Assembly (NCBI RefSeq): GCF_030818695.1
Contig: NZ_JAUTAR010000001.1
Span: forward strand, 3,342,501 to 3,406,500
Direction: 5' to 3'
Length of the DNA stretch: 64,000 nucleotides
Origin: Chryseobacterium sp. SORGH_AS_0447
GTDB lineage: Bacteria > Bacteroidota > Bacteroidia > Flavobacteriales > Weeksellaceae
Shown: positions 38,179 through 43,913 of the stretch, piece after piece
How positions within the stretch are numbered: position 1 is the first letter of the stretch
Layout: every line of letters begins with the position of its first letter
Translations under genes and position numbers: made by a program
Notes under the pieces: model-generated
What the model was told of the DNA's origin: nothing
The model's input: only the letters and a program-made list of their open reading frames with translations
Databases searched by the model: none

Positions 38179-39261
38179 TTATAAGGGTTTGTATTCGAAC
38201 TGGGGGAAGCCTCTTTCTCCTGAAGTATTGGTAAGCCTGGTGAATCTCAGTTTAAAATAATATCCGTTTGCATCTTTAATAATATAAAAACGGTTTCCGT
38301 ATACTTCTAATCCGTTAACTCCTACAGGATTTCTCCAGTTTGATCCAATAATCCTCTGATCATTGTAAACAAATTTAGATTGATCAATATCGGAAACTTT
38401 GAAATTGTTATATGCTTCAACCCCAGATCCGGAATTTATAAGTACCTCATAAGCTCCTACACCACCTACGTTATTATGGGTAACAAAATCCGCGTAAATA
38501 TAACTTCCCGCACCGCTAATAATATTTGTAAAGACCGTAAAGCTTAGATCCCACTTTTTCTTTTCAGGCTGAATAAGTACTTCTTTATCGTTTTTTAGGC
38601 TAACAAAATTATAATTGTATGCCGTATTTTTGACTATTGTAATTTCTTTATGTGTAGTTGTACCAAGCTCTGCATATTTTATTTTATAGTTTTCTCCGGA
38701 TCTTACGATTTGAATTTTCATCCATCCTCTGGCATCGCCGCCAGTAGCTACTGAACCCTGTGCTACCGCTCCAGTATACAATTCTTTGCCCATATTGAGC
38801 AGATAGACTGCGTTTTCAGAATCATCCGCTTTAATTTCTTCAATTGCTGTATATCCTGTTGGAAAATTCCCTTTCACATCATCAATATAAACTTCATTAG
38901 AGGGGTTGAAGTTGGCTACCTGTATCTGGTTCTTTAGTGTGGAAACACTGGATTCCGTAACAAGGTCTATATTAGATGCATTGGGGATTTTTCCTGCCGC
39001 CATCATGATGGATGAATTTAGAATAACTTTAAAGGAATTACCTGAGTACAATGCAAGATCCCAGTCAGTTCTTTTAGTTACAATTTGCTTATTTTCGCTC
39101 AGATCAAACCATACCTGATTGGGCTGCGTTGGTCCTCCTACCAGCGGATCTGCGACACTCCCTTCTATCTTAGAAACGGCAACCGGATCTTCATTATCAT
39201 TGATGCATGACTGGTTGATTAATGAAGTTGCCACCAAAAGGCCAAGTATTATTTTCTTCAT
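38179..39261 (-). CDS. hmuY: HmuY-family heme-binding lipoprotein
   Basis: A 360-residue outer-membrane lipoprotein (signal MKKIILGLLVATSLINQSC, Cys at residue 19) of the HmuY family, known from Porphyromonas gingivalis as a hemophore that hands heme to HmuR. Repeated WDL motifs are typical: VWFDLSENKQIV and DWDLALYSGN near residue 50-70, KKWDLSFTVFTN near 240, and YYFKLRFTRLTN near the end. It lies 10 bases after the receptor gene and 24 bases before hmuT. Confidence 0.88.
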   Translation of the reverse strand: MKKIILGLLVATSLINQSCINDNEDPVAVSKIEGSVADPLVGGPTQPNQVWFDLSENKQIVTKRTDWDLALYSGNSFKVILNSSIMMAAGKIPNASNIDLVTESSVSTLKNQIQVANFNPSNEVYIDDVKGNFPTGYTAIEEIKADDSENAVYLLNMGKELYTGAVAQGSVATGGDARGWMKIQIVRSGENYKIKYAELGTTTHKEITIVKNTAYNYNFVSLKNDKEVLIQPEKKKWDLSFTVFTNIISGAGSYIYADFVTHNNVGGVGAYEVLINSGSGVEAYNNFKVSDIDQSKFVYNDQRIIGSNWRNPVGVNGLEVYGNRFYIIKDANGYYFKLRFTRLTNTSGERGFPQFEYKPL

Positions 39262-39271
39262 GGTAAATATT

Positions 39272-41404
39272 TTAAAGATTATAATTTAAACGGATAAAAT
39301 AACTTCTGCCGTAAAAAAGATTCTGCTTATCTGCCGCCACATTATGTGTTCCACCAGCCTGTATAGAATTCCTCACACTGCTTACATCAAATATATTTTT
39401 CACACCTGCACCGAGTTCAAAATGGTTTTTGAAAAAAGGCTGGCTTATGGTGAAATTGAGCATATTAAAACTACCTACTTCTCCAAGAATAAAATTGGAA
39501 GGTGCAGAAAGATTTGTGGTGGTTTCCTGTACAAATTGTTTTCTTTTCCCGCTATATTTGTAATAAAGTGCAAATAAAGTTTTTGTCTGAGGAAGTGTAT
39601 AATTTACTGCCAGGTTAGCTTCTGCGTAAAAGTTGTAGTCATCAGGTGAAGTAGTATTTCCTGCAACGAGTTCCTGGGAAATCCCCATTACTGAAATTCC
39701 GGCATTTACGGAAAAATGATTACGTTTTGCAGAAAAACCGCCGCCAAAAAGAATTGAGTTATATTTGTTGATATTGAGATAAGTATATCTCAGCGGACTA
39801 TTGCTGATAATAACACTCTCAATTCTGTCTTTTACATCAAGGTATAAACCGGAAAGGCTAATATCGAATCTCCAAGTATTGGCAATATTCGTTTTATAAT
39901 CCCAAAATAATCCTGCAGAATAGCCTGTTTCCGGACTCAGATTCTCATTTCCGCGGATATCATGATTGGCATCCACTGTATAAGTATAAAGTTCTTCGTA
40001 AGTTGGAAAACGGTTTGAAGAACCAAATACTGCACGGAGATCTGACTTTTGCGAAGTACTGTATCTCGCCGTTAGTGAGTAATTGCTTTGGGAATCGAAC
40101 CTGTCGCTAAGTGATAATCTGTATCCTGGTCTCAATGAAAATTGATCCGAAACCTTCCATTCTGCTGAAATAAAATTAGCGTAGCTAAAAATAGCTCTGT
40201 TGACATTGTCTCTTTTTTCTATACTCTGAAACGTAGCAGAATTAGCAAAGCCGTTGGTCCTATCCAGCTCATATCCCAACTGAAAATTAATCTTTTCACT
40301 GTCCAGGAAATTACTGAACATTCCTCTGGAGTAAAAAACTTTGGAATCATAATAAGTACTCTTAGGATCACGGGATCTTTCCTGTCTGGCCGGGACATCA
40401 TATTGATAATCCTGGGTCTGCCGTTCCTGCGTCTGGTAGGAAAAATCTCCTAAATAATTAATTCTTCCCAGTTTTGTCTGAATATTGAACTGATGAATCC
40501 ATCGGTTAGTAAAATAATCCTTGTCATTACCGATGTAGGTCCTGTTTCCCCCGCCTAACGAAAGTTCGTCCACATTTTGGCTGTAGAAGTTAATTTCTTC
40601 ACGGAGATAATTCACTTTATAAAACAGGGAAGTATTGTTTTTGGCATATCTTATGGCGGCATTAGTAATAAGGAGATCTTTTGGAAGCCATTCATATCCC
40701 CGGCCTCCGTTATCCATTTCGCTGAAGTAGGTATAGCCATTATATTTCCCTTTGTACCCCTGAAAATCATTATGATTAATGTCTGCAGTTACCGTCCAGT
40801 GGTCACTTATTCTATATCCCAGATTCAAAGACTGTACATGTCTTCCGTTTCCTTTTTTGAACCAGTCATAATCCTTTCCTACGGTTTCTTCCTGTAATGA
40901 TAGATTGGCGTTAAACTTTTGGGAATATGTTTTTTTGGTGATGATATTAATAACTCCGGTTACCGCATTATTCCCATATTCCACGCCCATTGCACCTTTT
41001 ACCACCTCAATACGCTCTATATTATTCACATTTATTTTACTGAGATCGGTCTGGTTCCCGCTTCCACGGTCATTCACTACCGGGATATTATCAATAAGAA
41101 TTTTGGTGTAAGCACCGTTGAGACCTAAAATATTAGCACTGGAATCTCCATTTCCTGAATCGGGTACAATCTGGATATTAAGATTTTGATTGAGAACCTC
41201 TGCTGCCGTAGTCACTGCCATATTCTTGATCTGCTGCGCATCAATCACCTCAACCTTGTAAATCGACTTGTTGATCGACTGCTGCATATACTGTCCGGTA
41301 ATTACCACCTCCTCTATTTTCGTCTGGTTAACAGAGTCTTTTTCTTGTGCATGTCCATAGAGAACAGCAGATAATGATAGAATGGAAAGCAGTTTCTTCT
41401 TCAT
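39272..41404 (-). CDS. hmuR: TonB-dependent heme receptor (HmuR-like)
   Basis: A 710-residue outer-membrane receptor. The signal peptide is MKKKLLSILSLSAVLYGHAQ (ATG 41404). The plug domain (about 35-150) contains AEVLNQNLNIQIVPDSGNG and ILIDNIPVVNDRGSG, then a 22-strand barrel follows, ending FIRLNYNL with a terminal aromatic/Leu pattern. As first gene of the hmu operon it is inferred to import heme with HmuY. A -7 box TATATTTG (minus strand, 41424-41431) lies 19 bases before the ATG, and a Fur-like site lies just upstream. Confidence 0.9.
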   Translation of the reverse strand: MKKKLLSILSLSAVLYGHAQEKDSVNQTKIEEVVITGQYMQQSINKSIYKVEVIDAQQIKNMAVTTAAEVLNQNLNIQIVPDSGNGDSSANILGLNGAYTKILIDNIPVVNDRGSGNQTDLSKINVNNIERIEVVKGAMGVEYGNNAVTGVINIITKKTYSQKFNANLSLQEETVGKDYDWFKKGNGRHVQSLNLGYRISDHWTVTADINHNDFQGYKGKYNGYTYFSEMDNGGRGYEWLPKDLLITNAAIRYAKNNTSLFYKVNYLREEINFYSQNVDELSLGGGNRTYIGNDKDYFTNRWIHQFNIQTKLGRINYLGDFSYQTQERQTQDYQYDVPARQERSRDPKSTYYDSKVFYSRGMFSNFLDSEKINFQLGYELDRTNGFANSATFQSIEKRDNVNRAIFSYANFISAEWKVSDQFSLRPGYRLSLSDRFDSQSNYSLTARYSTSQKSDLRAVFGSSNRFPTYEELYTYTVDANHDIRGNENLSPETGYSAGLFWDYKTNIANTWRFDISLSGLYLDVKDRIESVIISNSPLRYTYLNINKYNSILFGGGFSAKRNHFSVNAGISVMGISQELVAGNTTSPDDYNFYAEANLAVNYTLPQTKTLFALYYKYSGKRKQFVQETTTNLSAPSNFILGEVGSFNMLNFTISQPFFKNHFELGAGVKNIFDVSSVRNSIQAGGTHNVAADKQNLFYGRSYFIRLNYNL

Positions 41405-41423
41405 GAGGTACAAAAATTTTCGA

Positions 41424-41492
41424 CAAATATAATGCTTTATTTAGAATAGTTAAAAATAAATATGTACTTTTGTTGAATAATTCTAAATAAAA
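41424..41492. promoter_or_regulatory. Divergent hmuR / T9SS-protein promoter with two Fur-like sites
   Basis: Minus strand: -7 TATATTTG at 41424-41431 for hmuR. Plus strand: -7 TACTTTTG at 41465-41472 for the gene at 41501. Two Fur-like half-palindromes, ATTTAGAAT (41439-41447) and ATTCTAAAT (41480-41488), are exact inverse copies. One covers the hmuR core promoter, the other the start point of the plus-strand gene. The stretch 41439-41488 matches 42534-42583 at 44 of 50 positions without gaps. Confidence 0.7.
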
Positions 41493-41500
41493 ATAATAAT

Positions 41501-42319
41501 ATGAAATTAGGACTACTTTTTGGAAGTTTGATGCTCGCAGCTGTCTCAGCGAATGCACAAGTAGCGACAATTAATGAGAATTTTAACAGTTTTACGGCAG
41601 GAAATACGACCTTTCCACAGGGTGGCTGGTCTGCTGTAGTAGCTTCGGCAACTTCTACTCCGCCGCCTGTCTCTCCCAGAATGATCGTAGCAGTTGATGC
41701 TAACGATTCGAACAATAAAATGGTGCAATCATATGCAGGAAATAACGGTACGGCTCCATCTTATCTGATCACTCCACAGATCGTAGCTCCTGCGGGAGAC
41801 AAGACCTTATCCTTTCAGACCATGCTGGTATCTCCCTCTCCCGGTCCCGGAACCATCCAGATCGGTATGGCTTCAAGTACAACGGATATGAGTACTTTTG
41901 TTGCTGTAGGAAACCCGATCACATTATCGGCAGTAGGCACTGTACAAAACATCAGCGTAAATATTCCGGCTTCAACTTTACAATATATTGTATTCAGATT
42001 TACCCCTTCCACAAGCCATGTAGCCGTACAGATCGACAATGTGGTGTACAATACCTCAACCAGCCTGGCGGTTTCCGATCAGGTAAAATCAAAGGAAGAA
42101 GTAAAGTTTGCCGTGAATTCAGAAAATACAGCGTTGGAATTTATCACCAAAAAAGATCTTAAGAACATCCAGGTATATTCCGCAGGAGGCCGGAAGGTTG
42201 CTGCCGGTAAATTATCCGGAAGGTCTTTCGATATCACCAGCCTACAGACCGGTGTATATTATATCCTAATCGAAACCGCAGAAAGTACAACAGTAAAATC
42301 AAAATTCATTAAGAAATAG
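41501..42319 (+). CDS. T9SS-secreted protein with jelly-roll-like domain
   Basis: A 272-residue secreted protein (signal MKLGLLFGSLMLAAVSANAQ). The middle (about 25-190) starts INENFNSFTAG and includes GGWSAVVAS, a jelly-roll layout like the cleaved-adhesin/choice-of-anchor domains; it may bind ligand or protein. The C-terminus (about 205-272: VKFAVNSENTALEF, IQVYSAGGRKVA, LQTGVYYILIE, basic tail) is a T9SS type A sorting domain. It is divergent from hmuR and shares its Fur-like control region, so a role in iron or heme acquisition is inferred. Confidence 0.75.
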   Translation: MKLGLLFGSLMLAAVSANAQVATINENFNSFTAGNTTFPQGGWSAVVASATSTPPPVSPRMIVAVDANDSNNKMVQSYAGNNGTAPSYLITPQIVAPAGDKTLSFQTMLVSPSPGPGTIQIGMASSTTDMSTFVAVGNPITLSAVGTVQNISVNIPASTLQYIVFRFTPSTSHVAVQIDNVVYNTSTSLAVSDQVKSKEEVKFAVNSENTALEFITKKDLKNIQVYSAGGRKVAAGKLSGRSFDITSLQTGVYYILIETAESTTVKSKFIKK

Positions 42320-42344
42320 ATTTATTAAACCGTTTTTACATGTA

Positions 42345-42378
42345 AACTGATTTATGATTTCATAGATCAGTTTTTTTT
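42345..42378 (+). terminator. Terminator after the first T9SS gene
   Basis: AACTGAT-T-TATGA with TCATA-G-ATCAGTT, followed by eight T. Confidence 0.85.
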
Positions 42379-42533
42379 ATTCTATTAAATGTGTAAACCC
42401 AACGATATTTAAATCCAGATAATAATTTAATACCAAAAAGGTCTAATGAACAAAATTTAATCCGCTTTAAAACAGCCTAATGAAAAGGATTCAGATCAAA
42501 TTAATTTAAAAACACGACAAAAATCATGTTTCT

Positions 42534-42585
42534 ATTTAGAATAATTAAAAATAATTATATAGTTTTGTGGAATCATTCTAAATAA
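42534..42585 (+). promoter_or_regulatory. Fur-like promoter of the HmuY-like T9SS gene
   Basis: ATTTAGAAT (42534-42542), -7 TAGTTTTG (42560-42567) and ATTCTAAAT (42575-42583) have the same order and exact spacing as at 41439-41488. Two promoters with a shared 50-base architecture point to one regulator, most likely Fur. Confidence 0.7.
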
Positions 42586-42605
42586 TAAATAGAGACCATT
42601 ATATT

Positions 42606-43913
42606 ATGAAAACAAAATTACTTTTTACAGCCATGCTGGCGTTGGGGGTACAGCAGACCGTATTTTCCCAGACCGATGCCAACGGATATACCACCGTTAA
42701 TATGTCGATGGGCGCAAGTTACCAGAACCGTGTATTTTTTGATCTGAGTACCAACAATATGGTTTCCCAGCCTGCCAATACCTGGGATATTGCTTTTTAC
42801 AGGAATTCAAGCATGAGTTTCGGAACCCGAATGAATGATGCGCAGAATATCGAAGTATACCAGGCTTCAAACAATCCGAATGACTGGAACAGTATTACCA
42901 CAAACAGTGTCGCTTCATACGGATCACCTTTGTACAACCTTGACAATACAACATCTATCCAGAAAGGTGCTTTCGAACAGGGAACAGCGACTTACGGCTG
43001 GGGAGAATACAACCCCGGAAATCACCATATTGAAGGAAAAGTAATTTTCATCCTAAAATATGTTTCCAACAATACATATTACAAGTTTATGATCGACGAT
43101 TATTTCGGCGGCTATACTTTTAAATATGCCAAATGGAATGCGGCCAATTCTTCCTGGGATGCCGCCACCTCCAAAACTATTGCCAACGGCAGCGATGATG
43201 CATATTTCAATTATTTTTCTTTCGCAACAGGAGATAAGGTGGCCAGCCTTGAGCCTTCAAGAACAGACTGGGATTTTATGTTTACCCGATACTGGACGGA
43301 TTATCCGTATACAAATCCCAGCACAGGACAGCCTGCAACCATGAAATATAGAATGTCCGGAGTGATCCAGAATACCAACATTACGGTAGCCAAAGTACAG
43401 CCTGAAACTCAGGCAACAGCTTCCTCTACCCTTCCGGCGTCTTCAGCATTCTCGAATAATATTACGGCAATTGGTCACAGCTGGAAACCTACGCAGGGAA
43501 TTTACACCAATGTGGTATATTACATCAAACAGGGTTCGGAATATTACAGGATGTATTTCACTTCCAATGAGGGATCCTCTACCGGAAATATGTATTTTAA
43601 ATACAAAAACATTACTTCCTCTTTAGGAACAACCGATATTGCCTCCAAAAAAGCATCGTTCGGTATTTACCCGAACCCGACGACCGCAGACAAGCAGGTT
43701 ACGGTTTTATTTGATGTTAAAGAAAAGGTAAACAGCAAAGGACAGGTAGAAGTTTATGACCTTTCCGGGAAAAAAGTTTATTCGGCGGAACTGACGAACC
43801 AAACCGGTTTCTACAAGCAGGATCTGAACCTTTCCCACCTTTCTTCAGGAAATTACCTGGTGAAAATCACCTTTGGCGGAAGCACGGAAACGAAAAAGCT
43901 GATCGTGAAATAA
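42606..43913 (+). CDS. HmuY-like protein with T9SS sorting domain
   Basis: A 435-residue secreted protein (signal MKTKLLFTAMLALGVQQTVFSQ). The body resembles HmuY: RVFFDLSTNNMVSQPANTWD and IAFYRNSSMSF align with VWFDLSENKQIV and DWDLALYSGN of the lipoprotein HmuY at 38179. Later RTDWDFMFTRYW and YYRMYFTSN repeat the pattern. The last 85 residues (FGIYPNPTTADKQVTVLF, VEVYDLSGKKVYSAEL, LSSGNYLVKITFGG) are a T9SS type A sorting domain. So it appears to be a HmuY-fold hemophore candidate delivered by type IX secretion. The promoter is Fur-like. Confidence 0.78.
   Translation: MKTKLLFTAMLALGVQQTVFSQTDANGYTTVNMSMGASYQNRVFFDLSTNNMVSQPANTWDIAFYRNSSMSFGTRMNDAQNIEVYQASNNPNDWNSITTNSVASYGSPLYNLDNTTSIQKGAFEQGTATYGWGEYNPGNHHIEGKVIFILKYVSNNTYYKFMIDDYFGGYTFKYAKWNAANSSWDAATSKTIANGSDDAYFNYFSFATGDKVASLEPSRTDWDFMFTRYWTDYPYTNPSTGQPATMKYRMSGVIQNTNITVAKVQPETQATASSTLPASSAFSNNITAIGHSWKPTQGIYTNVVYYIKQGSEYYRMYFTSNEGSSTGNMYFKYKNITSSLGTTDIASKKASFGIYPNPTTADKQVTVLFDVKEKVNSKGQVEVYDLSGKKVYSAELTNQTGFYKQDLNLSHLSSGNYLVKITFGGSTETKKLIVK

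Follow-up and report, generated by a model that had tools for sequence, protein, structure and literature searches.

The stretch of DNA analysed here (the window, 64 kb in full) contains a haem-uptake locus with genes in both directions. On the minus strand are an hmuR-type TonB-dependent receptor gene (39272..41404, start codon at 41402-41404; PF07715 and PF00593) and, behind it, an hmuY-type gene (38179..39261; PF14064, 1.1e-24). Divergent from hmuR, on the plus strand, are two genes for secreted proteins, called A (41501..42319) and B (42606..43913) below. Gene A has a signal peptide-like start (judged by eye), a choice-of-anchor J or cleaved-adhesin-like domain (NF038128, 56.5 bits, cut-off 30) and a type IX secretion system (T9SS) type A tail. 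The TIGR04183 sorting domain is found in both proteins (A 33.2 bits, B 61.4 bits, cut-off 23), so both are of T9SS type A; with PF18962, B (57.8) is above that model's cut-off, while A (23.9) is below its cut-off of 27. A terminator-like hairpin, with a 13-pair stem followed by a T run, lies between A and the B promoter on the plus strand (42344..42373), in a pattern scan that found five such sites against 2.3 in shuffled sequence. B therefore plausibly relies on a promoter of its own, block 2 as described below.

Gingipains are exported by the T9SS. The predicted fold of the A domain resembles the K1-K3 cleaved-adhesin domains of Lys-gingipain (PDB 4itc, 3km5, 3m1h), but A is a small stand-alone protein, unlike the gingipain domains, and carbohydrate-binding modules fit its fold about equally well: the Foldseek results for the model of A list CBM4 first, then Kgp K3 and K1. 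The predicted structure of B has a HmuY-like fold, with HmuY listed by VIA-align in a second look and absent from the best 50 rows of plain Foldseek. PF14064 did not match the window B protein at 0.001, but it matched 7 of 37 members of the B alignment (window B was scanned and is not among the seven), at best with 5.7e-12, and two of five B relatives scanned singly exceed its cut-off. A profile of B matched the window HmuY (96.4%). B is a likely haem catcher. A T9SS-secreted HmuY of Flavobacterium columnare likewise combines a HmuY domain with a Por_Secre_tail; deleting this hmuY did not impair growth in the iron-limited medium chosen, and a promoter is not described in the sections available (PMC9618737).

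The two plus-strand genes are each preceded by a similar 50-nt block. Block 1 (41439-41488) and block 2 (42534-42583) agree at 44 of 50 positions without gaps, exactly as the original prediction had it. Among same-strand, ungapped pairs of 50-mers in the window, none at any other distance reaches even 40 of 50. In the 4,374,394-base genome, the exact outer half-sites in the arrangement ATTTAGAAT-N28-36-ATTCTAAAT occur only at blocks 1 and 2, and a reversed-pattern control gave no match. When up to three mismatches were allowed at fixed spacing, there were 15 genome matches against 16 in the control, which is background beyond the two blocks; these are the sole exact pairs, and the next best have two mismatches, so only these two stand out. 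The architecture was predicted to be linked to iron genes rather than scattered, and in this genome it is confined to the hmuR-A-B locus. An Rfam search of 41300-42800 gave no match.

Each outer half-site proved to be half of a 19-bp palindrome. A block consists of two imperfect 9-1-9 palindromes that follow ATTTAGAATNATTCTAAAT, their starts 31 bp apart, on either side of a TAnnTTTG −7 element. The consensus used for comparison was the Fur box of Riemerella anatipestifer, ATTTAGAATTATTCTAAAT, and bit scores were taken from a matrix of ten published R. anatipestifer boxes, with a null of 13.1 bits at 99% and 10.6 bits at 95% (per 253 bp). All four sites differ from the consensus at just two or three of 18 positions. 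In block 1, site 1L (41439..41457, ATTTAGAATAGTTAAAAAT, three mismatches) scores 13.4 bits, over the 99% null, and covers the −33 regions of hmuR and gene A alike; site 1R (41470..41488, TTGTTGAATAATTCTAAAT, three mismatches) overlaps the −7 element and expected start of gene A and scores 10.4 bits alone, slightly below the 95% null. In block 2, site 2L (42534..42552, ATTTAGAATAATTAAAAAT, two mismatches) is the top-scoring site of the 64 kb at 18.1 bits, while 2R (42565..42583, TTGTGGAATCATTCTAAAT, three mismatches) scores 8.0 bits alone, within the null. The window has three sites of 13 bits or more, where simulation gives 0.3 per window. The four boxes start 31, 41, 62 and 72 bp before an ATG, with TAnnTTTG within each block.

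The positions of these elements are read against the −33/−7 promoter geometry and start-site distance of Bacteroidota. The −7 elements of genes A (TACTTTTG, 41465..41472) and B (TAGTTTTG, 42560..42567) are on the plus strand. That of hmuR (TATATTTG, 41424..41431) is on the minus strand, and is the mirror of the gene A element about the middle of box 1L: both elements have their last base 24 bp from that point, which would make 1L one operator common to hmuR and A. Elements at −33 and −7 are also mentioned in the accessible text of a study of R. anatipestifer (PMC5609570). In gene-anchored regions of relatives with the element, an hmuR-facing CAAAnnTA within 26 bp upstream is present at 28 of 29 A-type elements and none of 27 B-type. 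Among the 89 distinct A-type elements selected by the pattern, 64 have CAAAnnTA at precisely the offset seen in the window, and a looser test (CAAAnnTA 4-16 bp upstream) gives 67 of 89 A-type against 8 of 76 B-type. Eight B-type elements among the matches listed directly adjoin hmuR; these and the eight with CAAAnnTA are two sets that were not matched individually. Block 1 is thus a divergent promoter common to hmuR and A. The shared promoter architecture of the original prediction stands, but that prediction overlooked the two boxes in each promoter, the mirrored hmuR promoter that uses the same left box, and the likelihood that block 2 is a copy.

A block close to ACACGAYAAAAATCATGTTTTT lies directly upstream of the B element (window 42508-42533) and is kept at the same place before B in relatives. 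Within it, ATCATG occurs in 19 of the 27 B-type elements and in none of the 29 A-type. The block looks like a mutated hmuR-facing −7 element.

The architecture is well conserved in relatives. Protein searches with A and B covered 59 genomes, and strong matches were found in 35 (A) and 29 (B) of the 36 same-genus genomes searched. Upstream regions were taken for 60 genes (30 A and 30 B, among the matches listed), and the two-box pair is present in 56, at a spacing of 31 in 52 and 32 in four; it is missing before A in G011 and before B in G018, G035 and the distant G048. Simulated regions had it in 0 of 3000 cases, and TAnnTTTG is found in 55 of the 56 paired elements. Since loci selected by the pattern would be circular evidence for fixed letters, conservation was measured on the gene-anchored data. 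Before B (29 sequences, not counting G048), the boxes match the window with identities of 0.92 and 0.93 and the −7 element with 0.91, compared to 0.52 upstream and 0.43 in the leader. Before A (30 sequences) the values are 0.92 and 0.92, 0.90, 0.72 and 0.73; the contrast is small because the upstream part of A includes hmuR coding DNA.

The full architecture (spacing 31, at most three mismatches) was found in 67 of 197 genomes of the family, with no control matches: 48 of 50 of the same genus, where the two misses (G009 and G147) have a spacing of 32, and 19 from two further genera. When named genomes were scanned for the pattern, at least 119 stretches were found, of which the 80 listed are from Chryseobacterium, Epilithonimonas and Weeksellaceae MAGs. 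Among the matches listed for these 119 stretches, all 168 occurrences are within 200 bp before A (91) or B (77), and hmuR is divergent at 80 of the 91 A-type occurrences. In the stretches examined from relatives, therefore, the expected link to iron genes holds as it does here, with the architecture confined to the hmuR-A-B locus.

We consider it likely, with good though not full confidence, that blocks 1 and 2 are Fur-repressed promoters of this locus, and that A and B are induced together with haem uptake when iron is scarce. Each block would bind two Fur dimers, one at the −33 region and the other at the −7 and start region, and at 31 bp, or about three helical turns, the two would lie on the same side of the helix. 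When loaded with iron, Fur would keep RNA polymerase away; when iron runs short, the promoter would be freed. The left box of block 1, being also at −33 of the divergent hmuR-hmuY pair, could serve as a single operator for both directions.

One could instead suppose that each promoter has a single Fur operator among its two boxes and that the other half-site is part of the promoter or binds something else. The left boxes do retain a non-palindromic half (TTAAAAAT), the right boxes stay below the 95% null when scored alone, and in R. anatipestifer a single box is described (PMC11967795, in the sections available). Before B, however, both boxes are conserved equally. Other TonB receptor promoters in the genome point in both directions here. 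There are 37 Plug matches, and 30 receptor upstream regions were examined; five exceed the 99% null (hmuR, L125, L131, L141 and L142). L141 and L142 have one left-type box each, before the −7 element, and the box of L131 is 242 bp upstream, but L125 (in the region of genome C1:1233667), the promoter of a second TonB receptor, has Fur-like boxes on both sides of the −7 element, 39 bp apart. As far as these sequences go, then, the two-box form occurs elsewhere and the 31-bp form is confined to this locus in this genome. We regard the single-operator reading as rather unlikely.

In the hmuR-upstream regions of other genera, pairs of boxes at 22, 41-42 and 54 bp, near whole helical turns (no statistics applied), were seen in L272, L274, L275 and L278-L283; wider pairs in L273 and L285; one box in L268-L271 and L277; and none in L266 and L267.

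Support for Fur itself comes by analogy with R. anatipestifer, another member of the Weeksellaceae. In the accessible text of PMC5609570, Fur bound the hmuR and sprT promoters and two others in electrophoretic mobility shift assays (EMSA), although the box of sprT is far from the consensus; the rhuB promoter has a near-identical box, at which binding is described only with Mn2+ (PMC10986502, in part). The match of the 19-bp sequence to a box bound there by Fur is consistent with the proposal, made from the window alone, that these are Fur-like promoters. In strain CH-1, the gene of the haemophore RhuH and rhuR-rhuA have a common bidirectional promoter of 122 bp, whose Fur box is 25 bp from one start and 78 bp from the other; rhuH is derepressed when fur is deleted, when the Fur box is mutated and when iron is low (PMC11967795, 2025, as far as its text is available). 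Identical distances of 25 and 78 bp are given for RAYM_06185 and hmuR of strain YM (PMC5609570), so these were taken to be the rhuH-rhuR locus. As here, a haem receptor and the gene for a haem-binding outer membrane protein are opposite a secreted haem protein (PMC11967795), and the locus is iron- and Fur-controlled, with a 19-bp Fur box of the kind seen in the window (PMC11967795; PMC5609570). It differs in that the divergent gene is RhuH (PDB 8XJC) and that one box and no second promoter copy are described in the sections available (PMC11967795), while here A and then B fill that place. By this parallel, derepression of the divergent gene in R. anatipestifer lends support to placing both secreted proteins in the haem and iron regulon, as first suggested.

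The same species also supplies the main reason for caution. Low/high iron ratios in strain YM are 6.71 for RAYM_06175 (HmuY), 7.89 for 06180 (HmuR) and 7.25 for 06185; deletion of fur in iron changes the same genes by 2.56, 2.64 and 2.25; and within the fur deletion the low/high iron ratios are 7.69, 8.44 and 8.37 (PMC5609570, in the part available). They are as large without fur as with it, so Fur accounts for only part of the response in YM, and our confidence was lowered slightly because of this persistence (Table 4, PMC5609570). A different iron- or metal-sensing regulator, whether another FUR-family protein or something else, might read the boxes alone or beside Fur. The genome has three FUR-family genes: one clear Fur-type gene (PF01475, 77.7 bits), whose NCBIfam Fur match is below that model's cut-off, and two weaker ones, for which the best NCBIfam model is Zur, again below cut-off. 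Against this, the box equals one bound by Fur in vitro (PMC5609570, PMC10986502) and in CH-1 the corresponding gene is derepressed by loss of fur as well as by mutation of the box (PMC11967795, each as far as accessible); another regulator seems highly unlikely.

Further observations count against Fur control of the blocks: every box departs from the consensus at two or three positions, the left ones have their non-palindromic half, the right ones score weakly alone, a 13.8-bit site lies within hmuY coding DNA (39016), and in a single-box search of the genome (at most two mismatches), which gave eight sites against one control match, at least five of the eight are, by eye, near genes not concerned with uptake. 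These eight sites were not taken as a regulon list. The last alternative, that the blocks are alike through a recent functionless duplication, deserves almost no credence: their flanks are also somewhat alike, but both blocks persist in species whose HmuR in many cases shares no more than about 56% identity with the window HmuR, and the leader of B, from box to ATG, has diverged while the blocks were kept, a conservation that disfavours it.

A Fur-box-like site also lies between two genes that, by eye, resemble FumC-type and iron-sulphur class I fumarase genes (L005 1501-1519, genome C1:625769-625787), an arrangement that would fit iron-sparing control. Near-consensus sites at L004, L006, L008 and L009 are by genes that, by eye, resemble those for respiration or haem synthesis (cytochrome c, cbb3 oxidase, hemN-like).

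The place opposite hmuR is filled differently in different lineages. In 123 loci with an hmuR start, which were chosen by the element or fetched separately and so do not form a random sample, the nearest of A, B and RhuH divergent from hmuR is A in 97, B in 18 and RhuH in one (1.5 kb away), with none of the three in seven. One of the B loci (L283) contains unread bases, and B is split there into two matches. In several other genera B is directly beside hmuR, and in G099 (L274), outside the 123-locus tally, the gene adjoining hmuR divergently is a RhuH relative (8XJC, 2.4e-89; DUF6607). B itself was considered as RhuH and rejected, since its profile had no match to 8XJC at 0.01; nor did the A profile at the same threshold, and a search of the window's genome with the RhuH relative of G099 gave none at 0.001 (a search run without a positive control). 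A 259-aa protein divergent from hmuR in G067 (L268 442-1221) looks A-like by eye, with no A match at 1e-8.

Repeated and missing copies of A are also found. In L169, two A genes and B are each preceded by an element of their own, and other genomes have fused A units. In L218 (C. sp. c4a), where B but not A is found beside hmuR, hmuR is followed by a decayed A-side element, a gap and an intact B element, a layout as if A had been lost. In C. pennae (L190) B is present without A beside hmuR and nests among A-plus-B rows in the B tree, so that a loss of A is probable there. In the B-protein tree (64 rows), A-plus-B versus B-only needs five changes, and their order is not fixed by the tree. The flanks just upstream of blocks 1 and 2 are alike in only 9 of 23 genomes taken singly at p<0.05, with a mean of 8.8 against 1.2 for shuffles. 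Together, the contents of the slot, the repeated A units, the decay in L218 and the flank likeness favour the view that the divergent promoter was copied as A and B came to be stacked. Most likely, block 2 is such a copy, which would have lost its hmuR-facing half and now drives B; we infer both the duplication and its order from these comparisons.

More tentatively, the hmuR promoter may be a portable, self-copying iron-control cassette, an idea that we find possible but would not yet favour. It would hold a two-operator Fur clamp of strict 31-bp spacing, and its outward slot would swap or stack unrelated secreted haem scavengers: RhuH in some genera, the HmuY-T9SS protein B in several, and A plus B in Chryseobacterium, sometimes with repeated A. 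Added genes would receive a copy of the promoter, and the twin copies would offer a recombination route for gain and loss of A.

HmuY/HmuR of Porphyromonas gingivalis and hfpR-hfpY of F. psychrophilum also pair a receptor with a HmuY-type haemophore, and the hfp operon is induced by iron shortage; unlike here, these genes are co-transcribed in one direction, and a twin divergent promoter is not described in the sections of PMC9331221 available. Nor was a description of a duplicated two-operator promoter pair found in the literature accessible to the search. The locus is ordinary in kind, a haem locus controlled by iron, most likely via Fur; the new part is the conserved, duplicated two-operator promoter, a variant of the known divergent arrangement. 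If the reading is right, two uncharacterised secreted proteins, A and B, would be assigned to haem and iron uptake, and T9SS cargo would be made together with the receptor when iron is short. With its constant two-box geometry and its copied promoter, the locus would provide a clean test of Fur repression at the −33/−7 promoters of Bacteroidota, and the copy may also inform how secreted haemophores are swapped at one regulated site.
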